Source of the DNA: a virus
Length of the DNA stretch: 48,759 nucleotides
Virus record (IMG/VR): IMGVR_UViG_3300018481_000010
Span: 1-48,759 of that record
Direction: 5' to 3' (one strand)
Made by a program: the position numbers and the translations under genes. The notes under the pieces were generated by a model. It had not been told where the DNA came from, made no database searches, and was given only the letters and a program-made list of their open reading frames with translations. This document shows, piece after piece, positions 1 through 48,759 of the stretch. Position 1 is the stretch's first letter; each line of letters opens with the position of its first letter.

Positions 1-123
1 GATCCCGGTCAGTTCACGTTCGAAGTCGCCGAACGTGATCTTCCCGTCACGGATATCGGCCGTGAGGTGGGTGACCTTGCTCGTGGGGCTGATCAGGCGC
101 TTCGCGATCCGGTCGAAGTCAAC
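1..123. repeat. Left copy of the 123-bp terminal direct repeat
   Basis: Bases 1-123 are identical to 48637-48759. Both copies lie inside the coding sequence of the giant protein and in the same frame, because the unit length of 48,636 is divisible by three. This is what an assembler leaves when it walks round a circular or circularly permuted molecule. A genuine short terminal redundancy of the packaged DNA cannot be excluded from sequence alone. Confidence 0.97.
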
Positions 124-3100
124 GGCGGCCGTGTTGCCGAAGATCAGGGGCCGCGCGGCCTCGGCCATCAGCGGACTCATGGCGACCTCGCCCGCGCCGG
201 ACGCCCACACGTCGGCCTCGCGCAGCCAGCGCATCGCGATCTCGCCCGAGTCGAGGGTCGAGTAGCGGACCTCCAGCCGGTGCCACAGGAGCGGGTTGAT
301 GGCGTCGAACCGACGCTTCATGTCCTTGCCAAGGAACTCGCGGTACATCCGGCGCTGGGCCTGCACCTTGGCCCTCGCTGGCATCGAACCCCGGCCGACC
401 CGCTGGAACTTGCCCCTGATCCCCTCGGCCCAGACCTCGTTCGCGACCCCACCGGCCTGCTGGAACGCGGCCTGATTGCCCCACAGGTAGGACATCGACC
501 GCTCCATGAAGTCGAACTTCGCGTACTCGTTCGACGCCATGTAGCGGTTCATCATCCGCTGGGCTTCCTCATCGAGTTCAGACGGCTCGACCCCGATGCG
601 GATGCCCCGCATCATCGCGAACGCGTACGGCTCGACGGCCTCCTGCGCTTGGAAGAAGAACGCCCAGCGGCCGAACTTGAGGTTGGGGTACAGGCGCTCC
701 GTGATCTCACCGAGTGCGTTGTGACCCGTCCGGGTCGCCAGCGAGGACTTGATCTTGCCGGTCAACTTCTGGGTTGCCCCGACCGTCAGCGTCCCGCCTT
801 CGAACGACAGCAGGACGGCGTCCTGAAGGTCGCGTGGCGTGATGGTCCCCTCGGCCAGCGCCTTCCCGATACCCTCGACCTTCTCGGCGGCCACCTTGAT
901 CTCGGCCATGCCCATGCCGCGAGGGGTGGTGCCCATCTCCGACGCCGTCCGCATGACCGACCCGAACAGGTCTTCGGCCTGCTTGACCGTCACGACGTGG
1001 GTGAACTTGCGGGACGGGTCCTCGACCAGCCGTGACACGAAGGACTTCTTGGCTTCGAAGAAGATGCGCTCGGTCGAGATGTCGCGCAACATCTTGTCGC
1101 GCAGCGATCCGAGTGTCCCGACGCCGGGGATACGGAGGCCGCCGATGCCCGTCGCCGGGTTGTACGGCTGGGCCACGTCATCGGCGGCATCGAGCCACGG
1201 CTTGGTGCTGATCAGCCGCCCGCCCTCGTTGTACTTCATCCGCCACTCGGCCCGGCCCACCGACTCGGGCCGCAGGCCCAGCGTGGAGTCGGTCCCCGAC
1301 AGCGTCCGGCCCACCCGTCGGATCACGCCCGGCAGTTCGTCCAGTTGGGCCTGCGTGAGTTCGATGACGAGGTCGTCCATGTGGTCATCGAGGTAGTTCT
1401 TCACGCTGTCCATCAGGACACGGTCTTCGTACCCCTCGACCACGAACATGCGAGCGAGGTCGTCGTACTGGCGGATCGCCCGCTTGACCTCATCGATGTC
1501 GCCCGCCTCGATGGCCGACAGCAGGGCCTCGGCCCGTGCCCGCGTGAGTTCATCGGCCCCGATGTACGTGACCCGATTGATGTGGGCGATCCTGACGGCG
1601 TCGTTCTGGACCGTCGGCAGGGCGATGGCCTTGCGGATCGCCTCCTTCACCTGCGACACCCGACGCCCGTAGTGCTGGGCGTGGATCATCGCGAGCATGT
1701 CCTCGTCGGCCGTGGCGATGAAGGCACGGACGGCGTCGTCGGCGATCTTGTTGTCGTAGATGACGTGCATGTGCTTCACGGCCTGCTCGCGAGCCGACTC
1801 CAGCACCTGCTCGCGGGTCTGCTTGCCGACCGGCACGAAGTCCTTCTTGCGGCGGCGGATGTACGCCTCGACCCAGTGCCCGAACGACTGGCCGAAGCCG
1901 CGTGCCAGCCGGTCCTCGATGACCTGCGTCGGCCGGACGGCTTCGGCCCCGTCCATCGGGACGAGGTTGGTCCGCAGCACGTCGTCGGCCAGCATCTCGC
2001 CCGCCGTGCCCCGGCCCATGTTGCCGATGAAGATGCCGAACGACTGGTTGAAGTTGGCGTCCATGCCGTGGGCCTTGGCGAAGTCCTGCATCCCGATGTA
2101 GTTGTCGATGCCGAACGCGTTCGCGCCCCCGCGCGTGGCCTCCGACGAGAGGTGCGCGTTCATGAGCGGGCTGTTGTTGCGGATGCCGATCTCGGCGAAG
2201 TTGAAGTTGACGGCCTTGACGACCTGATAGACCCCGGTCAGCCGCTGGCCCTGATCCAGTTGCATCGCCAACTGCTGGCGCTTGGGCAGTTGGCTGATCG
2301 TGATCGCCGCCTGCTCCGGGTCGATACCCTGCTTCACGGCCTCCAAGAACAACTCGTTGGTGACCGTGTCGGACTTCATCATCCGGTCCAACTTGCCCGG
2401 ACTCATGCGGCTCGACAGGTCCCGGTACAGGTTGCCCGTGATCTGATCGGCGATCTCGGTACCGTGCTTCTCGGCGAGTGACCGGAAGAACGCCCCGCCA
2501 GCCGTCCGGGCAGCCGTAGCCCCGGAGCGGGCGATGATGCCCGTCCCGAAGTCGGCCAGCAGCAGGGGATCGGTGAAGATCGAGAAGCCAAGGTTGAGCA
2601 GCGCCCCGCCGATGTTCCCCTCGGCGTTCGCGATGGGCTGGCCCGCCATGACCAGTTCGTCAAGCAGTTGCTCGTCGCTGATCTTGCCGCTCTTGGCGTT
2701 CTGCCAGACCTGCTGCAACTCGGGCGACACGGCGCTCTGGGGCAGGTTCTTGAAGTCCTGTGCTCGGCTGGTCATGCCGATCAGGCCACGCTGGGTCATG
2801 TTGCCCAGCAGCATCAGGCCACCCATCAACTGGCCGACTGTCTCGCCAAGGTTGGTCGGGGCGTAGTCGAGGTCGCGCATCAGCGCCCAGTCGTCGCCAC
2901 CGTTGGCCTCGCGCTCGGCCCGCTTCTTCTCGCGGACAGCGCGGGCCTCCTCGCCCATGTCGCCCAGCAGCGAGAGCATCGAGAGCGGGTTGTTGCGGAG
3001 TTCGGCCGTCATCCGCTCGTACGCGGCAGGGTCGTTCTGCTGGATGTAGGTCATCGTCGCGAGCGGGTTCTGGACGGGGATCGATGCGATGGCCCCAAGG

Positions 3101-3465
3101 GCCGTGGCAACCGGGGACACGACCGTGCCCAGCGGCCCGCCCGCGAACCGGCCGATGCGTGACCCGATCATCGCCCCGGCGTTCGGGTCACCAAGGATGC
3201 CGCCGATGGTCCGGCCAACGCTGATCCCGACCCCGGCCCCGATCCCGGCCCCGATCTGGGCCGCGCCCTCGCCCGCCTCTGCCGCCGACCGGGCGAACAT
3301 CGAGGGGTTGAGGTTGACCTTGCCAAGGTTGGCGTACAGGCTCTCGGGCGTGTCCTCGGGATAGAACTGGTTCTGGGGCGACGGAGACATGAACGTGTTG
3401 TTCACCAGCCCGTTGCCGTACTCCTGCGGACGGACCCAGCGGGCCGTCCGGTCGAGGGAGTCCAT
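1..3465 (-). CDS. Giant polyvalent virion protein, N-terminal part (residues 1-1155 of 2835)
   Basis: This frame starts at ATG 3465, overlapping the stop of the upstream gene as ATGA. I read it codon by codon to base 1 with no stop, and it continues at base 48636 to the stop at 43594. The full protein has 2835 residues. Residues about 16-55 are Asn- and Pro-rich. Residues about 56-135 form a long Gly/Ala/Ile-rich hydrophobic stretch with glycine-zipper character, which could insert into a membrane. The rest of this half is charged and probably helical, with no enzyme motif that I recognise. The place between portal and scaffold genes and the great length fit an internal virion protein ejected with the DNA, of the type called large polyvalent proteins. 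Function is inferred from context; the continuous frame is seen directly. Confidence 0.9.
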   Translation of the reverse strand, partial: MDSLDRTARWVRPQEYGNGLVNNTFMSPSPQNQFYPEDTPESLYANLGKVNLNPSMFARSAAEAGEGAAQIGAGIGAGVGISVGRTIGGILGDPNAGAMIGSRIGRFAGGPLGTVVSPVATALGAIASIPVQNPLATMTYIQQNDPAAYERMTAELRNNPLSMLSLLGDMGEEARAVREKKRAEREANGGDDWALMRDLDYAPTNLGETVGQLMGGLMLLGNMTQRGLIGMTSRAQDFKNLPQSAVSPELQQVWQNAKSGKISDEQLLDELVMAGQPIANAEGNIGGALLNLGFSIFTDPLLLADFGTGIIARSGATAARTAGGAFFRSLAEKHGTEIADQITGNLYRDLSSRMSPGKLDRMMKSDTVTNELFLEAVKQGIDPEQAAITISQLPKRQQLAMQLDQGQRLTGVYQVVKAVNFNFAEIGIRNNSPLMNAHLSSEATRGGANAFGIDNYIGMQDFAKAHGMDANFNQSFGIFIGNMGRGTAGEMLADDVLRTNLVPMDGAEAVRPTQVIEDRLARGFGQSFGHWVEAYIRRRKKDFVPVGKQTREQVLESAREQAVKHMHVIYDNKIADDAVRAFIATADEDMLAMIHAQHYGRRVSQVKEAIRKAIALPTVQNDAVRIAHINRVTYIGADELTRARAEALLSAIEAGDIDEVKRAIRQYDDLARMFVVEGYEDRVLMDSVKNYLDDHMDDLVIELTQAQLDELPGVIRRVGRTLSGTDSTLGLRPESVGRAEWRMKYNEGGRLISTKPWLDAADDVAQPYNPATGIGGLRIPGVGTLGSLRDKMLRDISTERIFFEAKKSFVSRLVEDPSRKFTHVVTVKQAEDLFGSVMRTASEMGTTPRGMGMAEIKVAAEKVEGIGKALAEGTITPRDLQDAVLLSFEGGTLTVGATQKLTGKIKSSLATRTGHNALGEITERLYPNLKFGRWAFFFQAQEAVEPYAFAMMRGIRIGVEPSELDEEAQRMMNRYMASNEYAKFDFMERSMSYLWGNQAAFQQAGGVANEVWAEGIRGKFQRVGRGSMPARAKVQAQRRMYREFLGKDMKRRFDAINPLLWHRLEVRYSTLDSGEIAMRWLREADVWASGAGEVAMSPLMAEAARPLIFGNTAAVDFDRIAKRLISPTSKVTHLTADIRDGKITFGDFERELTGI

Positions 3466-6143
3466 CAGAGTGCGATGTTCCCGCGCTTACCCGCCGACCC
3501 GCCCTGCGTGAGGCTCGTAGGCTTCGACACGCCCGTGTAGCCCGTGGTGGCCTGCGGGGTCACGAACGGCTCCTGCTTGATGGTCGTCGGGGTCGGGGAC
3601 GGAACGGCCGACGGGACGGCGGGCGGGGGCGCGTTGACGACCTGCGTCGGGGTGGTGACGGTCCGGGTGCGGACCGGACCCAGCGCGGCGTTGATACGCG
3701 GCGACATCGAGCGGAACATCGACTGCCCGAAGAACGTGCTGTCGAAGACCGGGACCTCGCCCGTCCGCTCGGGGATCGTGGTCGGTCCCGCTCCCGCGAC
3801 CCCGCCGCGCGTGAGGTAGGCCGCGATGGACTGGGCATGCTGGGTGCTGATCTGCGGGCTGGTGAGCAACTTCTGGAGCGTCCAGTTGGACCCGCCGGGG
3901 ATGCCCGACAGGCTGGGCAGGCCGGTCTGGGGATCGATGTCGTTGGCCGTCAGGCTGGACGGGTAGTAGACATCGCCGCTCTTCCTCGCATCGATCTGCC
4001 ACGACTCCACGTCCCTGACCAGCCCGGCGCGCAGCGGGGCATCGTCAATCGCCCGGCGCTCCATGTTGGCGGCACGCTCGGCCTCGGCCCGCGACTGCAT
4101 CGCGTTGAGCACGCGCTCGCGGTCAGTCTCAGGACCGTAGAACCGGATCGTCTGCTTGTTGTTGACCGACAGCCTGATCTCGTTGCCCAGAGCGGCTTGG
4201 AAGCCCTGCTCGCCACCGGCTGCGCGGGCGTTCTGCATCGTCTTGGTCGGGTGGGCCGTGTAGTACTCGGCCTCCTGCTGGATGTAGTCCTCGTCGGGCA
4301 TGTTGCTGATCCGGCGGGCGTCCACGTCGGAGGCCCGCATCCGGGCCTGAAGGATCGACGCCTGTGACCCGATGACGAACGTGCTGCCATCGGCCCCCGT
4401 CTTGCCGGTCATCAGCCCGGCACGGTCGATCCAGTCATCCGGGTTGGGCTTGGCGTTGCCCGTGAGGCCCGTGATCCTGATCGCCCCCGTGGCCTCATCG
4501 ATGTCGGTCTTCGACGTGGCCGTGACCGGAATGGGCGACACGTGGCTCCATCGGAGTTCGCCGTCCACGTAGATGCCGTACAGGGTGGTCGGTGCCGTCC
4601 CGCCGCCCGTGTCGAAGGCGACCGTGTAGCCCTGAGTCTCGTCCCGGTTGAGTTGGACCTTCTCCCCGACGCCCTCACGGGTGTTGGGGTCCATGCCCTT
4701 GTACGCCTCGATGGTGATCGGGGCACCGATGTACGCCTGCCGGACGCCCGTCGTGCTGCTGGGCATGATGAACACGTCCCTGCCCGACAGGCGCGGATCG
4801 CCCAGCGGGACCACGGCCCAGCCCTCGGGCTTGTTGCCCGCCTTGCCCTTCTTGTCGCCCCCGATCCCCATCAGGACGGCCTTGCCCGACCGCAGGTCTT
4901 CGTCCTGCTGGAGGACGATGCTTGCCTGTTCGCCGACCTTGGCGGCCATGGTGGCCTGACCACCGGGCAGGTTGCCGTACGGGTCGTCCCAGATGGACGA
5001 GTCGCGGGGCTTGCCGTCGAGTGCCGCGATGGTGCCCTCGACCTGCCCCATGAGGTCCACGGCGAACTGGTTGTGGGGCTTGCCCGACAGCGGATCGAAC
5101 CCCGACGGGAGTTCGTCCTCGACCATCCGCTTGCCCTCAGTCGCGAACCAGTCCCGGTTCTCACGGATCGCGGCAGCGACCTCGGAGGGCTGGGCCGTCG
5201 GATCGGCGAGGATGTTGTTCAGTTCGCGGCCACGCCGGTCGGCGATCTCCTGAAACGCAGCCGTCCCGATAGACACCGACGCGGCGTCGGCCATCCCCTG
5301 CTCGCGGCCCAGCCGGGTCACGTCGGCGTCGTGGTTGCCCGACTTGACGGCGCGGGTCTTCTCGATCCCCAGCCCGGTCTGCTTGCGCCGGATCAGGCGG
5401 TCGATGTCGGCCTCGGTGAAGTTGCCCGAGAAGTTCGGGTCGTCCATGGCCTTGATCAGGTCGGCCTTGCCCTGCGCCATCGACGGGTCGTTGTTGAGCC
5501 GGAACAGGAAGTTGTTCAGGAGCGCCGGGTCGTTGAACGCCGCCCAGCCGCCGTTGTTCGACGTGTCAATGTCCGAACGCTTCACGTGCTGGTTCATGAC
5601 CATGTATTCCATGATCGAGGACTCAAACTGGTCCCACGGCTTCTCGTACTTCTCCCACGTCGCGTTCTGGTTCTTCTGGTAACGGGCCTCGCGGGCGGCG
5701 TAGTCAGACGAGGCCGACCCGCGCGCAGCGGCATCGCGGAACTCGGCTGCCTTGGTCATCAGCATCCGGTAGTTGGCCGAGTTCTGCGGCATCTTCCGCG
5801 CCCACTTCTCGTAGAACGCGGCCATCTCGCCTTCGCTGATGTCCTTCTGCTTGTAGTCGAGGTACGCCTTCGTTTCGGCGATGTTGAACTGGAAGGCGTG
5901 CAACTGGTTGTTGTAGTAGTCCCACATCGGGTCGTCCTTGGACACCCCGTCGCGGCGCTCCGTCCAGTACTTGAGCATCTGGTCGTCGGTGACCTTCTTG
6001 CCTTCGAACAGGCCGCCGCCCTTCCACGCCTCCTCGATGTTCGTGTCACGGACGCGCTGGTACTCCTGCGCGAGTGACACGATGGTGGCGGTCAGGGACG
6101 GCGCGCTGCGCGGAAGTCGCCCGAACCGCGCCCGGCGGGCCAC
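3465..6143 (-). CDS. Large virion-protein candidate between portal and giant protein (892 aa)
   Basis: I do not recognise this family. The start is GTG 6143, three bases after the portal stop, and the stop overlaps the ATG of the giant protein. The N-terminal 150 residues are rich in Trp, Tyr, Lys and Glu and look helical. A middle region (about 380-560) has beta-type, Gly/Thr-rich sequence. The last 90 residues are a Pro/Thr/Val-rich tail likely to be disordered, containing TPQATTG, which recurs in the small basic protein at 28351-28680. Its position in the packaging/head block suggests a structural or internal virion protein, perhaps injected together with the giant protein. No catalytic motif is apparent. 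Confidence 0.8.
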   Translation of the reverse strand: MARRARFGRLPRSAPSLTATIVSLAQEYQRVRDTNIEEAWKGGGLFEGKKVTDDQMLKYWTERRDGVSKDDPMWDYYNNQLHAFQFNIAETKAYLDYKQKDISEGEMAAFYEKWARKMPQNSANYRMLMTKAAEFRDAAARGSASSDYAAREARYQKNQNATWEKYEKPWDQFESSIMEYMVMNQHVKRSDIDTSNNGGWAAFNDPALLNNFLFRLNNDPSMAQGKADLIKAMDDPNFSGNFTEADIDRLIRRKQTGLGIEKTRAVKSGNHDADVTRLGREQGMADAASVSIGTAAFQEIADRRGRELNNILADPTAQPSEVAAAIRENRDWFATEGKRMVEDELPSGFDPLSGKPHNQFAVDLMGQVEGTIAALDGKPRDSSIWDDPYGNLPGGQATMAAKVGEQASIVLQQDEDLRSGKAVLMGIGGDKKGKAGNKPEGWAVVPLGDPRLSGRDVFIMPSSTTGVRQAYIGAPITIEAYKGMDPNTREGVGEKVQLNRDETQGYTVAFDTGGGTAPTTLYGIYVDGELRWSHVSPIPVTATSKTDIDEATGAIRITGLTGNAKPNPDDWIDRAGLMTGKTGADGSTFVIGSQASILQARMRASDVDARRISNMPDEDYIQQEAEYYTAHPTKTMQNARAAGGEQGFQAALGNEIRLSVNNKQTIRFYGPETDRERVLNAMQSRAEAERAANMERRAIDDAPLRAGLVRDVESWQIDARKSGDVYYPSSLTANDIDPQTGLPSLSGIPGGSNWTLQKLLTSPQISTQHAQSIAAYLTRGGVAGAGPTTIPERTGEVPVFDSTFFGQSMFRSMSPRINAALGPVRTRTVTTPTQVVNAPPPAVPSAVPSPTPTTIKQEPFVTPQATTGYTGVSKPTSLTQGGSAGKRGNIAL

Positions 6144-6146: not shown

Positions 6147-8159
6147 CTACGCCTCTTCTTCGGGCGGCGGGCCGCCGCCCAGTTCCTGCTGGAACAGCAG
6201 GCGGTTCGTGGCCTCGCCCTCCTTGACCATCGTCTGGGCCATGACCTCGCCACCGCCCTCGGGCATGACCGGACCGGCCCCCGGAGGAGCACCCTCGACG
6301 TTGCCGGGCAGGGCCTCGTTGGCCGGGATCGGCTGCTCACCCGAACCGGGCTGCCCAGCAGCCGCGCCCATCGCACCACGCATGTCGTTCATCGCCTGTT
6401 CCTGCGTCGGCGGCCCACCGGCCCCCGGAGGACCACCGGCCCCCATGCCCTGCACGGCCTGCTGGGCGTTCTGGTAGCCCATGGCCTGCAACTGGGTGGC
6501 GACGGCGGCGATGACCTGCACGGCGGCCGGGTTGAGGGCCACGTCGGTCTGCTCGGTGCGGATGATGTTCTGCTCGGCCTCGGGATCGTCCACCCCGGTG
6601 CGGTCCATGCCACGGATGGCCGACCACAACTTGCCGTCCACGAGGGTCCGGGCGATCTGGGCCGTTTCCATGTCGTCGCGCGGGGTGAGCGAGGGGCTGA
6701 CCACGTCGAGCCGACCGCCCCCGGCGAGGATCGGCTCCAGATCGGGAGCCTTGTTGCCCCACACCGTCCGGGCCAGCGCCCAGATGTCCTTGCGCCAGCG
6801 GTAGAACAGGTCACGCTTCATCGAGATGCGAGTCTCGTAGTTCGCGACCAGTGCGTTGATGGCCTTGCTCGATGACATCACGGACGCGGGCGCAAGGCCA
6901 CGCAACAGGTCGTTCAGGCCACTGACATCGACCATCTCCTTGTCGATGCGGGTCATGAACTGCTCCAACTGGAACTCGGGCATCCACGGGGTGATGCCCT
7001 CGACCCGGTTGCCTGCTCCCGGTGCGATCACCTGATTGGGCTTCGGCCGCAGCCCGACCGGGACCTGATCGGGCGACTCGGGACCGACCAACTGCCAGTA
7101 CTGGGCGTTCACGATGTTGTGCATCAACTGCGACCCGCTGGTCAGCCGCTCGTCCTTCTCGCGGATCAACTGCTCGATGTCGAACAGTTCGGGGCGACCG
7201 TTGGGCACGCCGGGGATGTACGAGTTGAACAACGGCACGTACGGGATCACGCCCTCGTACTCGTTGAACTTCATGTTCTGGGCGACCTTGTTGCCCACGA
7301 TGATCGCGTTCCACGTGTCGTGGGTGATCGGCTTCAACTTGCCGTTCGCGGGCGGGCGACGGGCCTTGGGCTGGCGGTACCAGTAGTCCGTGACCTCGAT
7401 GGACCCGCCCATCCACATGGCCCGCCGCGCCATCGTCCACGACCCGAAGGACGTGATCGGCATCAGGTACGGGTAGGACTGACCGCTGCTGTCCTTGCGC
7501 TCGACGGCACACAGGCCGTACTGGGCGAAGATCGCCTCGGGGGTCATCAGGTACGAGTAGGCCGCCCAGTCGAGCGAGCGGTAGTCGCTCTGGCCCCAGC
7601 CCAGCCACAGGTTCCGGGGCTGGTCGATGATGTCCACGCGGGGGAAGCCCAGATCGCGGTCCCACCAGACCTTGGCAGCCGTCCGGCCGTAGAGGCCCTT
7701 CACGACACACGCCTTGTGGCTGATCAGGTTCAGCCCGATCTCTTCGCGCCACGCCCCGTACAGCCGCTCGCACATCGCCGCCATCTGGCGGGCGGGCGGG
7801 CTGTCCACGACCGGCACGATGTTCTCGATGGGCGGCACGGCTTGGAGGGCAGCCGGGATGTCCACGTAGATCGGCGGCGTGTTGATCGACAGGTGGGCCT
7901 TGCCGGGCAACTGGGCGCTGGAGTGGTACCACCAGTGACTGGCCCCGCCCTTGGCGAGGATCGCCTCGTCGGGCGGGTAGTACAGGGAGTCCCAGCGGTC
8001 GCATGCCGACACGAACGTCTGCTGATCAGACCACAACTGGGACCGGCGCTGCTGGAGGTCTTGGAGGAGGTCGAGTTCCCCCTCGGCGTACTGCCCGCCC
8101 GAGAAGTCGGCCTGCGAGAACTCGATGGCCTTGTTCAGGTCGAGGACGGCAAGCGCCAC
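6147..8159 (-). CDS. Portal protein
   Basis: 670 residues, starting at GTG 8159 behind a GAGGGG ribosome-binding site. It follows the large terminase gene, the usual place for a portal. The N-terminal half has the aromatic-rich pattern of phage portal proteins (for example SHWWYHSSAQ and NLWLGWGQSDYRS). A central helical part around residues 395-450 includes MSSSKAINALVANYETR, like the stem region of portals that thread DNA. The C-terminal 130 residues are low-complexity Gly/Ala/Pro/Gln and end in EEEA. A dodecameric portal forms the capsid vertex for DNA entry and exit and binds the terminase. The assignment rests on gene order, size and sequence style, without a database search. Confidence 0.82.
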   Translation of the reverse strand: MALAVLDLNKAIEFSQADFSGGQYAEGELDLLQDLQQRRSQLWSDQQTFVSACDRWDSLYYPPDEAILAKGGASHWWYHSSAQLPGKAHLSINTPPIYVDIPAALQAVPPIENIVPVVDSPPARQMAAMCERLYGAWREEIGLNLISHKACVVKGLYGRTAAKVWWDRDLGFPRVDIIDQPRNLWLGWGQSDYRSLDWAAYSYLMTPEAIFAQYGLCAVERKDSSGQSYPYLMPITSFGSWTMARRAMWMGGSIEVTDYWYRQPKARRPPANGKLKPITHDTWNAIIVGNKVAQNMKFNEYEGVIPYVPLFNSYIPGVPNGRPELFDIEQLIREKDERLTSGSQLMHNIVNAQYWQLVGPESPDQVPVGLRPKPNQVIAPGAGNRVEGITPWMPEFQLEQFMTRIDKEMVDVSGLNDLLRGLAPASVMSSSKAINALVANYETRISMKRDLFYRWRKDIWALARTVWGNKAPDLEPILAGGGRLDVVSPSLTPRDDMETAQIARTLVDGKLWSAIRGMDRTGVDDPEAEQNIIRTEQTDVALNPAAVQVIAAVATQLQAMGYQNAQQAVQGMGAGGPPGAGGPPTQEQAMNDMRGAMGAAAGQPGSGEQPIPANEALPGNVEGAPPGAGPVMPEGGGEVMAQTMVKEGEATNRLLFQQELGGGPPPEEEA

Positions 8160-8168: not shown

Positions 8169-9863
8169 TCAGTGGGTCTGGGCTGCCTTCAGGCGGGCCA
8201 GCAGTTCCGCGCTGAACTGTACACCGGGCTGATCCGGCTGAAAGTAGTCGAACGGGACGGCCGGGGCGGCGGCCCCCGGATTGAGCCGGGCCACGTCCAC
8301 GGCGACAGCGAGGCACATGACCGCGTCCTGCTCGATCTTGCGGTCGTCCAGTTTGTAGCCCAGCAACTGGCGACGGACGCCCAGCCACTTGCCGGACTTG
8401 GGCAACCTCAGTCGCCCCTCCTCGATCACCTTCTTCAACTGGTTCAGAAGCATCAACTTCTTCTGGCGCGTGCCGCCGAACTCGACCATCCGTACGGGGA
8501 TGGGGAGTAAGTCGCGGAACATCTTGCCGCCGAAGCCCGTGGCGTCGATCCCGGTCGCACATGTGACCCGATGGACCGGGTCGCTGTACGCGTTGTGGCC
8601 GTGCATCGCCAGCCCGGCGACCGACATCCCGGTCTGCCGACCGGACAGGCGATCCACCCACACCCCGTCCCAGCGGTAGCCCGCCGTGATGTCGAGGACC
8701 ATGCCCCACGTCGAGTCGAACGTCAGGGCGGGATCGATCCCCTGCACGTAACGATGGCCGCGCTTGGCAGGCTCGGTCGTCGGCATCTCGTCCACGAACA
8801 CGGCCTCGACCGACTGTGACCCGAAGAACGCCTCGCGTGACTCGATGGCGAAGCCGTCGATGTTCTGGGGGATCAGGTAGGGCGGCATGGCCGCCACGAT
8901 CCGGTCGAACATCTTGGCGTCGATCCCGAACCCGATGTTCTCGCGGGTGCTGATCCGCAGGCTGTACGAGTCGATCTTCTTGTCCGGGTTGTCGGGGTTG
9001 CCTTCCTGCCACTTGTCGGCGTACGCGGTCAGGCCCTCGGTCATCGTGCCGATCAGGAAGAGTTGTCCACCGGTACTCAACCGTCGGTTGTGGAGAACTT
9101 CATCGATCACGAAGTCGAAGTTGGGTTCGAAGGCGCACTCATCGAAGGACTCGCCGTCCATGTCCTTGCCGAGTGACCCGATGGCCCGCTCGCCGGTTGT
9201 ACGGAAATGGATAGTTCCGCCGCCCAGCAGGGGGTGGAGCCGGATCATCAGGTACTCGCCCCGGTACTTCTTCGACCAGTCGGCGACGGACGGCCCCAGC
9301 GTTTCGGTCAGAGGGCAGCCCGCCTCCTGCGCCTCGTGCGTACCCGAGAGCAACTTGGTGATCTCGTAGAAGACCAGTTCGGCGACCTCGCTGTGGACGC
9401 CGAAGTGGAACCACTCGTAGGTGAGCACCAGCCACCGCTCGACCGACCGGATGTCGAGCGGGTTGGGCGGTCGCTTGCCCATCTTGAACATGGTCGAGTG
9501 GAGGACCACGACGGCGAGGCCCAGCGTCTTCCCGGCCCGGTTGCCCGCCGCGACGGCCGTCGTCAGGTAGCGCGGCTGCCAGCGCGACTCGTCGCGGACG
9601 ATGTACGCCCGGAACAGCCGCGACTGGCCGGGGTGTGGCTTGAAGCCAAGGAACCGCTCGCAGAAGAAGTCCACGTCCCAGCGGGCGCGCAGCATGTCCG
9701 ACGCGAAGTTGGTCTGGGCGAACGCCCCGAATGTCTCGGGACCCTTGGCCGTGGCCGCTGCGCCCAGCACGGCCTTGGCCCTGCGCGACCGGCCCGTCGT
9801 CGGGTTCTTCGCGTCCTTGTCCCGTGACTCCAGCCGACCTCGTGTCGTCGCGAGGTCGGGCAT
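8169..9863 (-). CDS. terL: Terminase large subunit (ATPase and nuclease)
   Basis: 564 residues. Walker A motif GNRAGKT is at residues 107-113, a Walker-B-like acidic pair in GESFDECAF at about 238-245, and a coupling-type motif GTMTE at about 272-276. The C-terminal nuclease half shows acidic residues in GIDPALTFDSTWG (D377) and IDATGFGG, consistent with an RNase H-like fold. The enzyme packages DNA into proheads by ATP hydrolysis and cuts the concatemer. The start ATG 9863 overlaps the small-subunit stop (TGATG) and carries the recurrent GTGACCTGAT motif. There is little Shine-Dalgarno sequence, so translational coupling is likely. Confidence 0.93.
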   Translation of the reverse strand: MPDLATTRGRLESRDKDAKNPTTGRSRRAKAVLGAAATAKGPETFGAFAQTNFASDMLRARWDVDFFCERFLGFKPHPGQSRLFRAYIVRDESRWQPRYLTTAVAAGNRAGKTLGLAVVVLHSTMFKMGKRPPNPLDIRSVERWLVLTYEWFHFGVHSEVAELVFYEITKLLSGTHEAQEAGCPLTETLGPSVADWSKKYRGEYLMIRLHPLLGGGTIHFRTTGERAIGSLGKDMDGESFDECAFEPNFDFVIDEVLHNRRLSTGGQLFLIGTMTEGLTAYADKWQEGNPDNPDKKIDSYSLRISTRENIGFGIDAKMFDRIVAAMPPYLIPQNIDGFAIESREAFFGSQSVEAVFVDEMPTTEPAKRGHRYVQGIDPALTFDSTWGMVLDITAGYRWDGVWVDRLSGRQTGMSVAGLAMHGHNAYSDPVHRVTCATGIDATGFGGKMFRDLLPIPVRMVEFGGTRQKKLMLLNQLKKVIEEGRLRLPKSGKWLGVRRQLLGYKLDDRKIEQDAVMCLAVAVDVARLNPGAAAPAVPFDYFQPDQPGVQFSAELLARLKAAQTH

Positions 9864-11206: not shown

Positions 11207-11266
11207 CATCGGGGGTCCGGCCCTGCTGACGCCGGATCGGGGACCTTCACGGCCTCTTAAACGCCA

Positions 11267-11290
11267 GAAACCCCCGTTTCCGGGGGTTTC
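11267..11290 (+). terminator. Terminator-like hairpin before the primase gene
   Basis: Stem GAAACCCCC (11267-11275) / GGGGGTTTC (11282-11290) with a 6-base loop, in the 115-bp gap 11207-11321. It lacks a clear T-tract, so it may be an attenuator or RNA-stability element. The variant start-associated sequence CTCAGCAAAGAG (11300-11311) follows it. Confidence 0.6.
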
Positions 11291-11321
11291 AGGACAACTC
11301 TCAGCAAAGAGTGGAGGGATC

Positions 11322-19644: not shown

Positions 19645-19682
19645 TCGGGCCACCACCCCCCTCAGCAAGGAGATGTGACCCG

Positions 19683-34000: not shown

Positions 34001-35381
34001 CGAGCGTCGGCCCTGCGCTGGCGCTGGGCAGGAACCACGCCCGCCAGAACAGGTAGCGGGCGAGCGGCACGCTGCCGATCTCATCGACCCACGCCGTCGG
34101 TGCGGCAGCAGCCGTCGCGTTCGACCCGTACTGCATCTTGAGGGTCGTGTCGGCGGGCTGGGTGGCCGGAAGGATGCTCGCCGACAGCCACTCGTCGGGT
34201 GCCGTGGTCAGGTCCCGGCGATGGGTGGTCAGGCCGTAGCGGGGAGTGAATGCCTGCGTGTCGCTGACGTTGACCCCGGTCCCGCCGATGGTGTCACGGA
34301 CCTCGACCGCGACCGTGACCGGAACGCCGTCGGTCAGGTTCAGCGAGGACAGCACGTGCGTGGTGGCCGTGCCCGCCAGCCAGCCCGAGTCGTACACGGG
34401 CGAGGCACACGACACCCGGTACTCGGCCTGCACGATGGCCGTCGCCGTCCACGACACCGACAGGCGCGGGGCACCGTTGTCGAACACCATCCGCCGGGTG
34501 CTGCCCAGCACGACCGATGCGACCACGCCGACCGTGAACAGCCGCGAGGTGGAGTACAGGCTGTTGCCCTGCGCGTTGCTGGTGCGGACCTTCCACGAGT
34601 AGGTGAAGCCAGCGGGCAGCGGGGTGGGCTGGACGAGGGAGTTGCCCGCTCCCGTGACGTGGTAGGTCCCGACGTGGGTCGGCCCGGGGTTCTCCCACAC
34701 GTCCACGTCGGCCCCGGTCTGGGCACCGTCCGTGGCGTCATGGGTCCACGAGTAGGTCGGGGTGGTGGACTGGTTGATGGCACCGGCAGCCGGGGCGACC
34801 AGCGCAGGGGCATCGGGGACCGTCTTCTCCTCGTAGACGATCTCCAGATACGGCTCGTAACCCGCCTTCTCGCCGGACCAGATTTCCGTGTAGTCGCTGG
34901 CCGTGATCTGATCGAACACCCAGACGAGGCGCGAGGCGCTAGCGTCCCAGTACGACCGCAGGGCGGCCGTGACGACGACGACCTTCTTGGCGTTGGCCGT
35001 GGACCCCGACGCGAACGACGCCTGATCGGTCGAGGTCGGGATGATGTCGTCCCACTGGCTGGTGTTGGCCGACGAGAACCCGCTGTTGCAGTTCTGGGTG
35101 CCCGATGCCGCCAGCCACGGAGCGCCCGCCGCCATCCGGCGCACGTAGATGTCGCTGCTGGCTGGCCCGACGTGGGCGTGGTCGCTGATCCAGAACACCA
35201 ACTTGCCGCTGGTGATCGACTTCCAGTCCTGCCAGCCGACGGGCGGGGTGAACCGCACGGCGCTGCGGTAGCGGGTGCCCGACCACGTCCCGACCGGGAG
35301 GTGCGGTCCCAGCCCGGCGGCGTACGCCGGGGACTGCATCGCAGCGAGGTCGCCGCCGACGGGGACGTTGATCGTGGGCAT
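31020..35381 (-). CDS. Large tail fibre with collagen-like repeats and Gly-rich tip (1453 aa)
   Basis: ATG 35381 overlaps the previous stop and is preferred over a longer frame. The N-terminal 190 residues resemble a DNRLRE-type jelly roll, then Fn3-like domains (about 200-440), a carbohydrate-binding-module-like region (about 500-635), a collagen-like Gly-X-Y tract (about 710-915, [14 protein letters not shown]), and four or five repeats of about 43 residues carrying [19 protein letters not shown] (about 1000-1215). A glycine-rich C-terminal domain (about 1235-1453) begins GGTWSKPAG. Such fibres are trimers that bind host surface sugars, and the glycine-rich tip is the probable receptor-binding part. 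TAG stop. Confidence 0.85.
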
Positions 35382-41908: not shown

Positions 41909-42973
41909 CTACGCGGCCACGACGAGCGGATAGCGATAGGCCCGGTAGCCCTGAATGTTCAGCCCGGCCGGTCCCATGAGCGGGGAGCCGTCGAACCCGA
42001 CGAGGGTCTGACCGATCATCCCCTTCCAGCCCATGATCGCCCGCTGGGCGAGCGGGTCGGCGTGATCGCCACCCCGCGCGATGCGGTACGCCTCGACGGT
42101 CTGGAAGTCGCCGATGGCGTACGCCTCGGGGCCACTGAGGTAGAGGTCCCACGGGGTGGTGTTGTTCTCGGGAAGCCGGTTGGTTTCCATGAACCGGACG
42201 CCACGGAAGGTGCCGACCTCGCCGTTGAGCAGGTCGGTCGGGTTCTGGTACTTCTTGGTGTCGGTCCAGCCGAGTTCACCAGTCTCGGTCATGATCTGGG
42301 CGGCAGCCTCGGGGGAAAGGAAGCCGTGGTAGGTGCCGTCCGGGTAGGTCGGCACGTTGCGCCGCTTCATCTGGGTGACGGCATCCACGACGCCCTTGGC
42401 GAAGCCGGTGATCCCGACCGTGGCCGTGAGCACCGGGGTGCTGTTGACGATCAGGTCCTTGAGGACCGTTTCGACGTAGTCCACGGCGTTCCACGCCAAC
42501 TTCTCGGCGGCCTTCGCGTACAGGTCGAACGGCGAGAAGATTTCGGCAAGGTCGGTCATCGCGGTGGTCTTGCCGACCTGCTTGCCGCCGAAGTTGAAGG
42601 TGTCGAACAGCATCTTCTCGGTTTCGGGCGGGACGCCCTCCAGCAGTTCGACCGCCGGTCCGAGATCGCCGAAGCCCGTGTACACGAACTGGTTGGTGCC
42701 GGGCACGTGGTTCGCCCGGAGGTACATGTTGCCTTCCTGCGCGAACACGGCCTTGTCGCGGAGGACTTCGATGGTGTCACGCACGACGAGCGCCGTGACG
42801 ACCTTGGCGAACTCGGCGTTGAGGCCATAGGTCGCCACACGGGCGGCGTCGGTGAACGCGACACCCGGAACACCGGCACCCAGCGTGCCGACGTTGGACG
42901 GGATGATGGGCTGGGAACCGGGGTCGGTCTGGATCAGACCGCCGCCTTGGTTCCCGCCGATGAATGCAGCCAT
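41909..42973 (-). CDS. Major capsid protein (N4-gp56-like, HK97 fold)
   Basis: 354 residues. ATG 42973 has GAGGGAG upstream. The pattern FAKVVTALVVRDTIEVLRDKA, then MYLRANHVPGTNQF near the N-terminus and LLNGEVGTFRGVRFMETNR near residue 275 matches the N4-gp56 family of major capsid proteins. It forms the icosahedral shell with the scaffold-like protein encoded just upstream. The C-terminal sequence YRYPLVVAA is typical of a short final strand. The start includes no propeptide that I recognise. Confidence 0.86.
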   Translation of the reverse strand: MAAFIGGNQGGGLIQTDPGSQPIIPSNVGTLGAGVPGVAFTDAARVATYGLNAEFAKVVTALVVRDTIEVLRDKAVFAQEGNMYLRANHVPGTNQFVYTGFGDLGPAVELLEGVPPETEKMLFDTFNFGGKQVGKTTAMTDLAEIFSPFDLYAKAAEKLAWNAVDYVETVLKDLIVNSTPVLTATVGITGFAKGVVDAVTQMKRRNVPTYPDGTYHGFLSPEAAAQIMTETGELGWTDTKKYQNPTDLLNGEVGTFRGVRFMETNRLPENNTTPWDLYLSGPEAYAIGDFQTVEAYRIARGGDHADPLAQRAIMGWKGMIGQTLVGFDGSPLMGPAGLNIQGYRAYRYPLVVAA

Positions 42974-42988: not shown

Positions 42989-43549
42989 TTAGAACTCCCC
43001 CTCGCGTGCGGCGGCTTGGACGGCCGGGGCCATCCGCCGAAGGTCGGCGAGGAGTTCGTCCTTGGTCTTCTCGTTGGTCGGCTTCTGGCCGTTGCCGGGC
43101 ATGCCCGGCGCTCGGCGAGGAGCCGCGTTCGGATCGATCCTCGGTGCTGCCCCGGCTCCCGACTCGCCCAGTGCCTCGATGGCGGCAAGTTTCTCGGGCG
43201 CAAGTGTCCCGATGGCATCACCAAGCACGCCTGCTGCGTACGGGTACTGGGCCTGCAACTGGGCGGCCTGTCGAGCCGTCCGCTCCTGCTGGAGTTCAGC
43301 CTCCAGCGCCCTCACACGCGCAGCCTCGGGAGTCTCGCCGACAGGGGCCGGTGACGGTTGGGCCTTGAGGGCGTCGATCTGTGCCCTGAGAGCCTGTGTC
43401 TCGGCGTTGTGGGCGCGGTCCTTCCCGCTTGAGCGGTTCCTCCAGAAGGCTTCGACCTCTTCGACGGTCTGGGCACCGGACTGCTCGACGGGATCATCCG
43501 TGGAGCCGTTGGTCCCAGCCGTGGCGTCGGTCTGGCGTTCCTCGGTCAC
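42989..43549 (-). CDS. Scaffold-like protein (186 aa)
   Basis: GTG 43549 with a strong AGGAGGA site. Acidic N-terminus, then a Gln/Glu/Ala-rich coiled coil (ETQALRAQIDALKAQ and RVRALEAELQQERTARQAAQ), a Pro-rich stretch and a basic-acidic helix at the end (KDELLADLRRMAPAVQAA). Length, coiled coil and place just before the capsid gene fit a scaffolding protein that directs shell assembly and leaves the prohead. No protease gene is evident beside it. Confidence 0.8.
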   Translation of the reverse strand: MTEERQTDATAGTNGSTDDPVEQSGAQTVEEVEAFWRNRSSGKDRAHNAETQALRAQIDALKAQPSPAPVGETPEAARVRALEAELQQERTARQAAQLQAQYPYAAGVLGDAIGTLAPEKLAAIEALGESGAGAAPRIDPNAAPRRAPGMPGNGQKPTNEKTKDELLADLRRMAPAVQAAAREGEF

Positions 43550-43593: not shown

Positions 43594-46500
43594 TCAGTAC
43601 GACGTGGCAAGTCCTTCGATGCTGCTCTCCTGCTCCTCCAAGCCCAGCGCGTCGTTCGCGACGGCCTGTGCCCCGCCCACCATCTCGCGGACGTACTTGG
43701 TGCCCTGAATGGGTCCGGCAGCGTAGGTCCAGATGTCCTCGGCGACCTTGCCCGGATCGAAGTCCTTGATGCTGTCGATGTCGTAGCCCTCCTCCAGCGC
43801 ATCCGACGCCTCCAGTCCCCACTTGGCGAACCGGCGCAGCCAGAGCGGGTCGTTGACCGGGACTTCGAACGGCGTGGCCGGAAGCATCATGCCGATGCCC
43901 CGGATCAGGCCCTCGTGGTTCTCAAGGTACTCGCGGAACTCGGGGTCGCTGTCCTTCTGCATCTCGACGGAGTTCCAGATGCGCTGGCTGAGGAGCAGCC
44001 CACCACCGGGGGCCGGGATGCCGAACGGCTCGGCCGCGAGGAAGCGGAACAGTTCGGGCATGACCTTGCCCCACATGTACGAGGCCGGGTAGTAGGCGAG
44101 GTACGGGTGGTTGAGGCTGCGCTCCACGAGGTTCCGCCTGCGCCGGAAGAACACGTTGGTGTGGGCCGCGTCCTCGGCGATCCGCGATGAGGTCACGCCG
44201 GACTGGTGCAGGCCCTCCTGCATCGAGTCGTAGGCGAACCCGTACTGGGGTGTCTCGGGCATCCTGAACAGGCTTTCGAAGACCTCCGTGACCTCATCGC
44301 TGACCTTGGCCTCGGGGTTCTGCTTGAGGTAGTCCCAGACCCGCATCAGCCACTTGCGGAAGTAGGCGAACGCCTCGCGCAACTTCGGGTTGGGGGCCTT
44401 GCCGGTCGCCTTCCACAGCAGGAACTGGTCAACGAAGTGCTCCATGACCTCACGGTCCACGGCGTCCTTCGGGGCACCGACCGTTTCGCTGGCGGCCCGG
44501 ACCATCGAGTCGAGGGTCTTCTTCTCGTCCTTGACGGCCGCCTCCCAGACCTGCTGGGCCGCATCAGCCGCAGCCCGCTTCGGGGCGTGAGCAGTCGTGG
44601 CCGTGGTTGCCTTCCGCCGGGCATCCTCCAGCGCGTACTCAGCCTCGCGTCGGGCGCGGGAGGCGTTGCTCGCGGCGAACATCGCCGTCTGGTCGGCCTT
44701 GACGGCTGCCCGCGCCGGGCCAGCGACCTCGGGCTTGTACGCGTACCTCTTCGGGATGCGGAGGATGTAGTACCCCTGCGCGTCCTTGGTGACCAGCGGG
44801 CCGATCCGGCTCGCGACCGACGCCACGTCGGCGTCACTGAGGAGGCGGGCCTCGCCCACGTTCAGCCGGAACTCGGCCCCCGGCTTGATGACGGACGGGT
44901 TCTGGAACCACTTCTTGGCCTCGGCCACGCCCTCGCGCTCACGAAGCAGGCCCTCGTCCGTGATCTTGTGGGTCTTGAGGAGGACTTCCCGCGCCTTCTT
45001 GGCCTCAGCAGCCTTGATCTCGGCGGCCTTCTCAGCCTCCTTGGCCTTCTCGACCGCCCGCTGGGCAACCCGAACGTCGCTCTCGGCCTTGACCACCGCC
45101 TGCCGTGCGACCTTGGCCTCGGCCTCGGCCGCGTCACGCGTGACCTCATGGCCGGTCCGTGTCCTGATGGACTGCGCGTGGGCGATGGCCGTGTCAGCCC
45201 GCTTCTGGGCGACCTTCACCTCGCGCTCGCCGACACGAGCGTTGAAGTCATCGAGCATGACCTGCATCTGGGACGGGTTCAGGTCACGCTGGTACAGGGC
45301 ATGGGCGATCTCGTGCTGGAACGTGGTCCCATCGCGCAGGTCCGACAGGCCGATCAGCACCTGCTGGTCGGGGCCGAAGAACATCGAGGCCCCCCGGACC
45401 TTGCCCTCGCCCGCCTGCTGCATCAGCGTGTGGATCGGGTCCATCATCCCGTAGCCCGCGATCACTGGCGCGCCCGGCTTGCCCCCGACCTTCACGTTCT
45501 CGGTCGGCACGTCGATCTGGGGCAGCCCTCCCTGCATCAGGTACCCGGCCCGGCCGTGGACCTTGTCGCTGATCGCCAACTGCTTGATGTCCACCGGCTG
45601 GAAGTCGTGGGCCTGACGCAGGACGGTGAGTTCGGGGTCCCAGACGTTGCGGTACTCGTCCCACAGGTACCACTGGTACGCGCCGTTGCCGACCTCGGCC
45701 AACCAGCCGTTCTTCACCGGGTCGGCCGCGATGGCGGCCTCCTTGTGGGCCGTCAGCAACTCGTCGTACGCCCGGTAGTCGGAGCCGTAGATCGTGACCT
45801 CGCGACCCAGCACCTTCTCCAGATCGGTGTCCTCGGTGAAGGTGGCGAAGAAGCGGTCGGCATCCGCCCGCGTCATGCCGCCCGAGTACGCACCCTCGGC
45901 GAGGGTCTTCTTCTCCTGCGCCGCGACGGCCTTCTCGATCTTCGTCGTGATCCAGTTGCGGACAGCCTGCGGCCCCTGCCGCTTGAGGTCGGCGATGACG
46001 GCCTTGTCGGCCTTCAGGACACCGATCTTCATGGCCGGGGCATCGGACCACCCGTACTCGCCCGCCCCCGATGGGCGGTTCTTGGCGATCCACTTGTCGA
46101 TCTTGTCCCGGCTGCCCTTGGTCATGCGCTTGTAGAAGTCGTCCCACTGGGGGTTGCCCGGCCCACCTGTCTGCTCCCACAGCCAGTTGGTCAGGGTGCC
46201 CACCATCTGGCGATCCATCACGCCACGGTCGAACTTCTCGACGCCCGACAGGTCCACGGCGAAGTAGCCGGTCTTCATCGCCAACCCGTTCGACGTGTTG
46301 AGGATGCGCTCGGCGAACTGGGACGGCTGCTCCTCCGTGGGCGACAGCGCCGTCTGGACCGGACGCCACACGCCGTCATCGCCCAGCATCTCGACCTTGT
46401 CGGCCGTCACGACCGACCGGGCACGCTTGTTCTGGCTGGCGTTCACGCCACCGACGGCGTCGTCCCACTCGACCACGTCCTGCCGGGCGCGGAGGACCAC

Positions 46501-48759
46501 GCTGGTATCGCTGTCGGCGTAGATCGTGGCCGGGTGGGTGGCGACGTACTCGCCCACGCGCCAGTCGCTGGCCGCCCGGACCTGCGCCACCGTCCGGTAG
46601 ACGAAGCCCTCCTCGGACTTGAACTGGGTCGGCGTCGTGGCGTTGCCCCGGTAGTCCTTACCGAACCGGGCGGGCGGTGTCGGTGGCCTGACCCGCACCC
46701 GGAAGAAGTCGGGGTCCTCGGCCACGGCCTTGGCGAACTGCATCATCGAACCCATGGCCCGATTGGTCGCCATGTTCCGCCAGACCACGTCGGGGTTCTT
46801 GATGTAGGCGTACGGCAGGCCCTCGGCCGTCAGGGCGTCGTCCAGTGTCTCGACACCGGTCGCGTTGTGACGCCATGGCTTGATGGCGACGTTGGCGTCC
46901 ATCTCGGCCGCGCCGGGCATGATCTCGTACAGGACAGCCGCCGCGTTACCGGACGAGCCGGACGTGGTCAGGGCCTCCAGTTCGTCCTGAAGGGCCTGCG
47001 ACATGTCGTCGCCCTGCTCCTCCAGCATGTCCGTGAGTTCATCGATCCGGTTGCCCGACTCCTGAATCTCGTTGCGGGCCTGCTGGATCAGGGCGAGGAA
47101 GTCGGCGTTCGACCCGGTCGCACGACCGGCCATGGCCCGCGCGCTGACGTACTGGGCCGACTCGCCGATGTAGGTGGCCTCGGTCACCCAGTGGCCGATC
47201 AGCACGGGATCGACCTCGGCCTTGGTCATGGCCTTGACGGCCTCGTCCAGCGCCACTGCCCGCTTCTTGGGGTCGGCCGGGATTTTGGCCTTGCCCTTCT
47301 CATCGACGGTCTTGTACGTCTGCTTCAGTTCGGTGAGTTGATCGGCCGCCTTCTTGGGCAGCGCCGGGGGCTTGACCGGGACGTTCGCCGCCCACTTGGG
47401 GTCCGACCGCTTGGCCTTGGCCCAGTCTGGGATCAGGTCCAGCCAGTGGGCCTCCGGGTCCTTCAGGCCACTTTCCACGATGTCGCCCAGCCACTGGAGC
47501 ATCGGGCTGGTCTTGAGGACGTGCTTCTTGCGGTAGCCCGTCCGCAGGTAGTCGGTCGCGACACGAGCGGCCGACGCCATCTGGTTGGCCGATGCGGCCA
47601 CGCGAGGGGACCCGGAGTCGATGTGCTGCTGGACCGCGCCGACCGGGACGTAGTTACCGATCTCGGTGCCACGGGCGAAGCCGATCTCGTTCATCGTCAC
47701 GTCCACGCCATCGGGCTTCGTGGCGCTGATCGTGGACACGATCCGGTCATGGTGGTCGGCCATGCCAAGGATCGTGTCGGCCGACTGCTCCAGATCACCC
47801 GTCGGGTCACCGACCGTCTGTGACCCGAAGCCGCGCACCCGGAACCGGGTGTTGATCATCTCGTTCCGGGTCAGGTTCATGTTCGGGCTGAACATGGCGA
47901 ACCCGATGTTGTTCATGAAGTGGTGGATCGTGTCCATCCGCTGGAGGTCGATGTCGTGGGCCTTCCACATCCGGCGGTACAGGCCCACGGACAGGTCGGA
48001 GATGGTCACGTCCTTGGGGTTGATCATCTGTGACCTGATGACCTGCGCCTCCCAGACCGTCCACTCGCGGTCGGGATCGCGGAGCGCGGCCTCGCCACCG
48101 GGGATGTAGGCCCACCGGCCGCCAAGGTTGATCCGCTCCAGTGGCTCCATCGCGGTGGCCTCTTCGCCCATCCGCTTGATGATCCGGGCCTGATCGGTCC
48201 CCTTCGGGGCACCCGTGACCGGATCACGCAGGTAGGCCCGATCCAGCCACGCAGCCTCCAGATCGGCGATCTCCTGTGGCGTCCGACCGGCCAGAACCTG
48301 CGCCTCCTCCTTCCCGACCCGCCCGCCGTAGCCGTACAGGCGGGCGAGCGTCGGATCGGACGCCATCTGGAACATCAGGCCCATGCTGTCCCACTCGGTG
48401 GGCGTCAGGCCCGCGAAGTCCTCGGCCCCGATGGTGACCGGACCGACCCCGCGCACGCGCTGGGCCATGAACTCACGCTCGGACAGGCCCATGGCCTCGG
48501 CCCGGACCTGCGCCAGCCGCCGCTCCTGCTTGACGGCCTCGGCCGAGTACCCGAACTGGGTCCACGCGTCCCACCACTCGTCGGGGTCGAAGTTGGCCCC
48601 GACCCACGCCTTCTGGATGTACTCGGGCGTGGCCCCGATCCCGGTCAGTTCACGTTCGAAGTCGCCGAACGTGATCTTCCCGTCACGGATATCGGCCGTG
48701 AGGTGGGTGACCTTGCTCGTGGGGCTGATCAGGCGCTTCGCGATCCGGTCGAAGTCAAC
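43594..48759 (-). CDS. Giant polyvalent virion protein, C-terminal part (residues 1156-2835), HExxH motif
   Basis: This is the continuation of the frame that begins at 3465; the last 123 bases of the window repeat the first 123. An internal ATG at 48492 is residue 1204 and not the true start. A zinc-metallopeptidase signature HEIAHALY lies at residues 2263-2270. It is followed by Ala/Lys/Glu-rich segments likely to form coiled coil (about 2290-2390). A later helical block includes FVDQFLLWKAT and FAYFRKWLMRVWDYL, the kind of sequence found C-terminal to the HExxH motif in phage polyvalent proteins, where an acidic residue may be the third zinc ligand. Likely roles are ejection into the host and modification of a host protein or wall during entry. 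Catalytic activity is inferred from the motif only. Confidence 0.88.
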   Translation of the reverse strand, partial: VDFDRIAKRLISPTSKVTHLTADIRDGKITFGDFERELTGIGATPEYIQKAWVGANFDPDEWWDAWTQFGYSAEAVKQERRLAQVRAEAMGLSEREFMAQRVRGVGPVTIGAEDFAGLTPTEWDSMGLMFQMASDPTLARLYGYGGRVGKEEAQVLAGRTPQEIADLEAAWLDRAYLRDPVTGAPKGTDQARIIKRMGEEATAMEPLERINLGGRWAYIPGGEAALRDPDREWTVWEAQVIRSQMINPKDVTISDLSVGLYRRMWKAHDIDLQRMDTIHHFMNNIGFAMFSPNMNLTRNEMINTRFRVRGFGSQTVGDPTGDLEQSADTILGMADHHDRIVSTISATKPDGVDVTMNEIGFARGTEIGNYVPVGAVQQHIDSGSPRVAASANQMASAARVATDYLRTGYRKKHVLKTSPMLQWLGDIVESGLKDPEAHWLDLIPDWAKAKRSDPKWAANVPVKPPALPKKAADQLTELKQTYKTVDEKGKAKIPADPKKRAVALDEAVKAMTKAEVDPVLIGHWVTEATYIGESAQYVSARAMAGRATGSNADFLALIQQARNEIQESGNRIDELTDMLEEQGDDMSQALQDELEALTTSGSSGNAAAVLYEIMPGAAEMDANVAIKPWRHNATGVETLDDALTAEGLPYAYIKNPDVVWRNMATNRAMGSMMQFAKAVAEDPDFFRVRVRPPTPPARFGKDYRGNATTPTQFKSEEGFVYRTVAQVRAASDWRVGEYVATHPATIYADSDTSVVLRARQDVVEWDDAVGGVNASQNKRARSVVTADKVEMLGDDGVWRPVQTALSPTEEQPSQFAERILNTSNGLAMKTGYFAVDLSGVEKFDRGVMDRQMVGTLTNWLWEQTGGPGNPQWDDFYKRMTKGSRDKIDKWIAKNRPSGAGEYGWSDAPAMKIGVLKADKAVIADLKRQGPQAVRNWITTKIEKAVAAQEKKTLAEGAYSGGMTRADADRFFATFTEDTDLEKVLGREVTIYGSDYRAYDELLTAHKEAAIAADPVKNGWLAEVGNGAYQWYLWDEYRNVWDPELTVLRQAHDFQPVDIKQLAISDKVHGRAGYLMQGGLPQIDVPTENVKVGGKPGAPVIAGYGMMDPIHTLMQQAGEGKVRGASMFFGPDQQVLIGLSDLRDGTTFQHEIAHALYQRDLNPSQMQVMLDDFNARVGEREVKVAQKRADTAIAHAQSIRTRTGHEVTRDAAEAEAKVARQAVVKAESDVRVAQRAVEKAKEAEKAAEIKAAEAKKAREVLLKTHKITDEGLLREREGVAEAKKWFQNPSVIKPGAEFRLNVGEARLLSDADVASVASRIGPLVTKDAQGYYILRIPKRYAYKPEVAGPARAAVKADQTAMFAASNASRARREAEYALEDARRKATTATTAHAPKRAAADAAQQVWEAAVKDEKKTLDSMVRAASETVGAPKDAVDREVMEHFVDQFLLWKATGKAPNPKLREAFAYFRKWLMRVWDYLKQNPEAKVSDEVTEVFESLFRMPETPQYGFAYDSMQEGLHQSGVTSSRIAEDAAHTNVFFRRRRNLVERSLNHPYLAYYPASYMWGKVMPELFRFLAAEPFGIPAPGGGLLLSQRIWNSVEMQKDSDPEFREYLENHEGLIRGIGMMLPATPFEVPVNDPLWLRRFAKWGLEASDALEEGYDIDSIKDFDPGKVAEDIWTYAAGPIQGTKYVREMVGGAQAVANDALGLEEQESSIEGLATSY
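48637..48759. repeat. Right copy of the 123-bp terminal direct repeat
   Basis: Exact repeat of bases 1-123. One copy should be removed to obtain the 48,636-bp unit genome. After removal, the large leftward reading frame passes from base 1 to base 48636 without interruption. Confidence 0.97.

Follow-up and report, generated by a model that had tools for sequence, protein, structure and literature searches.

A giant, probable virion protein of polyvalent type with a predicted zincin-like metallopeptidase domain and a variable putative cargo region

Zincin-like metallopeptidases (MPTases) of phage polyvalent proteins have a helix bearing an HEXXH motif and a second helix bearing a glutamate, and the segment inserted between these helices varies (Iyer et al. 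2017, PMC5512222). The published proposal for their function is processing of the polypeptide itself (PMC5512222). The N4 virion RNA polymerase (vRNAP) gp50 (Schitoviridae) is an ejected protein with a probable membrane-spanning N-terminus, an enzyme, an HExxH domain, and a helical C-terminus (PMC12633501). Although it has an HEXXH domain, N4 vRNAP enters the virion uncleaved (PMC5512222), and this is the main caution for any model of self-processing. We analyzed a viral DNA of 48,759 nucleotides (IMG/VR record IMGVR_UViG_3300018481_000010; the whole stretch is called the window below) that encodes a giant protein with an HEXXH motif, and we compared this locus with its relatives and with the systems above.

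Bases 1 to 123 of the window are an exact direct repeat of bases 48637 to 48759, as found by comparing both ends, and the record is therefore read as circular. The giant open reading frame (ORF) runs on the minus strand from 3465 to 1 and on from 48636 to 43594 in one frame; it encodes 2,835 amino acids and takes up 8,508 of the 48,636 unique bases, or 17.5% of the genome. It begins with an ATG at 3465 that shares bases with the stop codon of the 892-aa gene upstream (TGATG). The join is no artifact, since relatives run unbroken over the junction, one of them (L042) aligning across it as a single stretch covering residues 23 to 1803 of the giant. Close to the N-terminus, the Gly/Ala-rich tract contains 10 overlapping GxxxG motifs against 3.7 in shuffles, with none of 5,000 shuffles scoring as high. 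Most relatives also have a Gly-rich hydrophobic N-terminal tract; the 21-residue hydropathy peak in the window's protein, 1.5, is borderline for a membrane helix. A sequence-only reading of this DNA had described both a joined protein of 2,835 residues filling about 17% of the genome and a hydrophobic Gly/Ala tract at about residues 56 to 135. The first is borne out by the terminal repeat and the continuous frame, and the second by the excess of GxxxG over shuffles and the similar tracts in relatives.

Table 1. Features of the giant protein and its neighboring genes in the window
Feature	Position	Strand	Basis
Terminal direct repeat	copy 1, 1..123; copy 2, 48637-48759	.	Exact match
Giant protein, residues 1-1155	1..3465	-	ORF and joining; residues 1115-1155 lie inside the 123-bp repeat
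Giant protein, residues 1115-2835 and stop	43594..48759	-	ORF; 48637-48759 duplicates 1-123
Gly/Ala-rich hydrophobic GxxxG tract, residues 56-135	3061..3300	-	GxxxG count against shuffles; most relatives have a comparable tract
Conserved N-core, residues about 200-1155 (on to about 1215 at 48457-48636)	1..2868	-	phmmer map; HMM
Variable middle (putative cargo bay), residues about 1216-2200	45502..48456	-	Profile mapping; common only to nearest relatives
Predicted peptidase core part 1, residues 2226-2273: three strands and HEXXH helix	45283..45426	-	A5 alignment; model
HEIAH, residues 2263-2267	45301..45315	-	H2263, E2264, H2267, and also S2277, invariant in family alignment
Predicted insert between zinc-binding helices: arms 2276-2377 and 2457-2538, tip domain 2383-2448	44488..45276	-	Model
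Predicted peptidase core part 2, helix 2550-2566 with E2554	44404..44454	-	A5 alignment; model
C-terminal helical domain, residues 2600-2835	43597..44304	-	Alignments; ERSLNHPY (2660-2667), SYMWGKV (2674-2680)
892-aa protein directly upstream of giant	3465..6143	-	Conserved N-terminal part; synteny
Portal protein	6147..8159	-	phrog_64, E 0.015; synteny
Terminase large subunit	8169..9863	-	phrog_2, 1.6e-10
Putative scaffold, directly downstream of giant	42989..43549	-	Position, composition; synteny
Major capsid protein	41909..42973	-	phrog_1357, 4.6e-22

Searches with both halves of the giant by tblastn against 50,697 phage records gave no match, and a scan of viral contigs with the window's giant protein alone returned nothing. 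Kin were instead located through the terminase and capsid proteins, and profiles of the giant were then built from these kin. A profile of the C-terminal part found 156 confirmed relatives in viral contigs (the best 80 of 156 were kept) and a second giant profile found 243 (the best 80 of 243 were kept), the two sets overlapping. Three giants compared with the 50,697 phage records produced no family match, the only shared segment being a ParB-like one in one case. A search of 84,980 genomes of bacteria and archaea matched a single contig, a distant relative of 50 kb in an Anaeromyxobacter bin; it appears to be a phage caught up in the bin, consistent with a lifestyle that does not involve integration. 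Searches of Pfam, PHROGs, and NCBIfam with the window's giant gave nothing convincing except phrog_9880 (1.2e-8, positions 1401 to 1495 of the C-terminal part), and profile searches of the PDB gave no convincing match. The giant represents a new family of putative virion protein of polyvalent type, a kind that is already known, and it stands for a common lineage of phages that has no recognizable cultured member in the phage collection searched.

Profile mapping shows that the N-core and the C-terminal domain form a framework kept family-wide and that the putative cargo bay between them varies by lineage. The N-core was detected by HMM in 69/69 complete relatives; the C-terminal domain, which starts at about residue 2535 to 2600, is common to the family and is its most conserved part. 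Some relatives carry ADP-ribosyltransferase, ParB_N, GNAT, or methyltransferase domains as cargo. The middle section of the window's protein had no convincing match in Pfam, PHROGs, NCBIfam, or the PDB and none in plasmid records, and the predicted peptidase is the one enzyme recognized in this giant. These cargo enzymes, together with the published description of the class (PMC5512222), support the earlier assignment to the polyvalent proteins; the layout of core, cargo bay, and C-terminal domain had been overlooked in that reading.

Relatives occur in long forms (n = 30; 2,056 to 3,148 aa), with a median of 1,336 residues between core and C-terminal domain, and in short forms (n = 39; 1,454 to 1,997 aa), with a median of 258. 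An HEXXH motif is present in 28/30 long forms and 0/39 short forms, a count that leaves out L045 (split ORF), against a chance expectation of 2.6% per protein; in long forms it sits 139 to 539 residues ahead of the C-terminal motif. Short forms, which occupy the same gene slot, have neither peptidase nor cargo. Because relatives share ancestry and few events are involved, the association of peptidase with length is not independent evidence: a tree built from the C-terminal domain requires three changes to account for the distribution of the peptidase, and peptidase and length change jointly only about two to three times. Two long forms, L161 (2042-10564) and L183 (2099-10651), have an ADP-ribosyltransferase domain and no HEXXH, and cargo is therefore not always dependent on the peptidase. 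By eye only, L161 and L183 were also judged to contain a HipA-like kinase segment. In L045, an in-frame TAG at 7970-7972, near the boundary of core and cargo, separates the core of the giant from the portion with cargo, peptidase, and C-terminal domain; it may be a real stop, a readthrough site, or a sequence error.

The HEIAH at residues 2263 to 2267 is the sole HEXXH of the giant. By itself such a motif is modest evidence, because 3.4% of shuffled versions of the protein contain one, and conservation decides. The motif goes beyond chance since it is kept at matching positions in relatives. In an alignment of 20 relatives (A5), the two histidines and the glutamate of the motif are invariant, as is a serine ten residues past the second histidine, and a further glutamate is near-invariant; an alignment of 23 compact forms (A8) agrees in each of these respects. 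Identity in the two alignments is 24 to 45%, and invariance of H, E, and H, including the catalytic Glu, across such divergence makes it quite unlikely that the site is structural or inactive, although N4 vRNAP retains an HEXXH domain and yet is packaged uncut (PMC5512222). The near-invariant glutamate (E500 of A5, E2554 in the window, E131 of A8) lies in a helix in the models, and its position is occupied by histidine in some relatives. It is the probable third zinc ligand, with H2555 adjacent, and its distance from the first HEXXH histidine is about 40 to 80 residues in compact forms and 291 in the window.

The model of the window's domain (mean pLDDT about 65) predicts three strands (at 172-177, 180-188, and 193-198 in model numbering), the HEXXH helix, coiled-coil arms with a tip, and the Glu helix. 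Block means of pLDDT over peptidase core part 1 are about 52 to 86, and about 73 to 86 near the HEXXH helix. The predicted coiled-coil insert of about 260 residues, its arms mostly above pLDDT 90, carries a small alpha/beta tip domain; compact relatives have no such insert between the zinc-binding helices, and the model of one has the identical order of strands and helices without the hairpin. This predicted order of three strands, HEXXH helix, and Glu helix fits the published account of zincin-like MPTases in polyvalent proteins, in which the two helices may also be separated by an insert (PMC5512222), and the data fit a zincin-like metallopeptidase domain with H2263, E2264, H2267, and E2554 as its predicted site. 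No zincin was among the Foldseek or VIA-align matches, coiled coils dominating the lists and the models being of moderate confidence: against the PDB and viral folds the window model returned coiled coils, and the compact model returned nothing credible. That no zincin was returned does not count against a zincin fold.

The sequence-only reading had named the HEIAH motif at residue 2263, long coiled coils, and a metallopeptidase. The motif stands in the joined translation and is conserved in relatives, the coiled coils are placed by the model at about 2276 to 2377 and 2457 to 2538, and the metallopeptidase call gains support from the invariant HEXXH and serine, the near-invariant third ligand, and the predicted strand and helix order. 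That reading had missed that the coiled coil is an insert inside the peptidase domain. It had put forward structure prediction around residue 2263 as a check, and the outcome was divided: the strand and helix order is MPTase-like, while the fold-search lists contain no zincin and the models have a mean pLDDT of about 65. An HEXXH domain with different spacing and no invariant serine occupies the same place before the C-terminal domain in L084, L085, and L184, and is perhaps a second, independently acquired peptidase type.

In nearly all sufficiently long loci the gene order is terL, portal, the 892-aa or another ORF, giant, scaffold, capsid, connector, and tail protein, so that the giant is encoded beside virion structural genes, between portal and scaffold/capsid. 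The N-terminal part of the 892-aa neighbor is kept in relatives and the remainder diverges; this protein is a candidate, perhaps, for a second internal virion (ejection) protein. The phage likely has a short tail, since no tail-tube or tape-measure gene was recognized in the window and its major capsid protein has a distant relative (about 25% identity) in Streptomyces Beephvirinae, a group in which one phage has been called a podovirus. A tape-measure function for the giant itself, setting tail length, is extremely improbable: one short form weakly matches a tape-measure PHROG (1.2e-4), but the capsid gene is downstream of the giant, the searches recognized no tail-tube gene, just two small genes separate the capsid from the tail-tip genes, and distant capsid relatives include podoviruses. 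Many phages encode a prohead protease where the giant lies, which would suit a head-maturation protease acting on scaffold or capsid during assembly; that role has a low probability, given that short-form phages, in which HEXXH is absent, also have these scaffold and capsid genes and that the HEXXH domain is embedded in a giant protein and a separate scaffold gene exists.

Elsewhere in the window, a dynein-type AAA ATPase (AAA_5) gene at 16762-18252 (+) is followed, one gene beyond, by a VWA-domain gene at 19545-20609 (+), the pair resembling CobS/CobT or MoxR-VWA chaperones. The gene at 11061-13436 (+) joins a Prim-Pol primase/polymerase to a DUF3987 helicase-like part and likely encodes a replication protein. 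A 1,487-aa protein (31020-35483, -) whose repeats are collagen-like and whose C-terminal domain is glycine-rich is a tail fiber candidate.

We consider it reasonably probable that the giant is an internal virion/ejection protein of a short-tail-like phage and that its peptidase frees cargo from the framework by cleaving itself or a partner. In this reading the head would contain several copies, which would be ejected along with the DNA into the cell, and the Gly-rich N-terminal tract, for which the sequence-only reading had proposed a membrane channel or anchor, may help at the membrane. The most likely substrate of the peptidase would be the giant or a partner among the virion proteins, and cleavage, whether ahead of packaging or at entry, would release cargo from the framework; the predicted coiled-coil hairpin may position or gate the substrate. 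No cleavage site was identified in the giant protein. The peptidase keeps its place next to the C-terminal domain in lineages whose cargo differs, which makes a task in the service of the framework likelier than that of an extra effector. The alternative, an effector directed against host proteins after injection, draws on the effector-like cargo of relatives and on the occurrence of effectors in polyvalent proteins and of zincins among conflict effectors (PMC5512222), but it is unlikely in view of that fixed position, which fits a chassis function better.

Short-tailed phage ejection proteins often carry wall hydrolases, and the giant occupies a virion-gene position, as would be expected of an enzyme that digests cell-wall peptide or envelope proteins for DNA passage through the wall and periplasm, a role at the wall that the sequence-only reading had suggested. 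Such digestion is rather improbable, because HEXXH is missing from the short forms that fill this gene slot and because self-processing is the published proposal for these MPTases (PMC5512222); moreover, neither a wall-binding domain nor a known hydrolase was recognized in the window's protein by Pfam, PHROGs, or NCBIfam, and its nearest motif match is the HEXXH domain of N4 vRNAP. Returning to release of cargo by self- or partner cleavage, a fuller version can be offered tentatively, though we regard it as doubtful: the giant may serve a large lineage of uncultured phages as a general delivery chassis, with a conserved virion framework, one plug-in bay for effectors, and a built-in peptidase that releases cargo on entry and has its active site bridged by a substrate-sensing or threading coiled-coil stalk. 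Because nature supplies long forms with peptidase and cargo as well as short forms lacking both, the family offers a way to ask what HEXXH domains do in giant ejected proteins, N4 vRNAP included.

Several described proteins share parts of this arrangement. FlowerPower gp9 (1,635 aa), of a Streptomyces phage in the Beephvirinae, is likewise encoded between portal and capsid, and the capsids are distantly related; gp9 was rejected as a homolog of the giant, profile search finding no homology. Like the T7 and P22 ejection proteins, the giant has a neighborhood among head genes and, by our reading, a corresponding role; unlike them, it is much larger, has a predicted peptidase and a variable cargo region, and has no database match. 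N4 vRNAP is also a giant virion-type protein of comparable layout, with weak profile similarity at the HEXXH region, the one N4 region compared (hhalign E about 1e-4 and probability 37 to 57%, over 29 to 67 columns around HEXXH, against the family profile). Unlike the N4 locus, that of the giant has a different gene order, and profile searches of Pfam and PHROGs gave no match to an RNA polymerase domain in the window's giant. Compared with the phage polyvalent proteins (PMC5512222), the family differs in having its own N-core and C-terminal domain, unmatched in Pfam, PHROGs, and NCBIfam apart from phrog_9880, and an invariant serine after the HEXXH, and the window's copy in having a predicted 260-residue coiled-coil hairpin and no recognized second enzyme. 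Like those proteins (PMC5512222), the giant is large, multidomain, and encoded among virion genes, it combines HEXXH with a predicted Glu helix and a variable insert, and its relatives carry ART, ParB, and methyltransferase domains.
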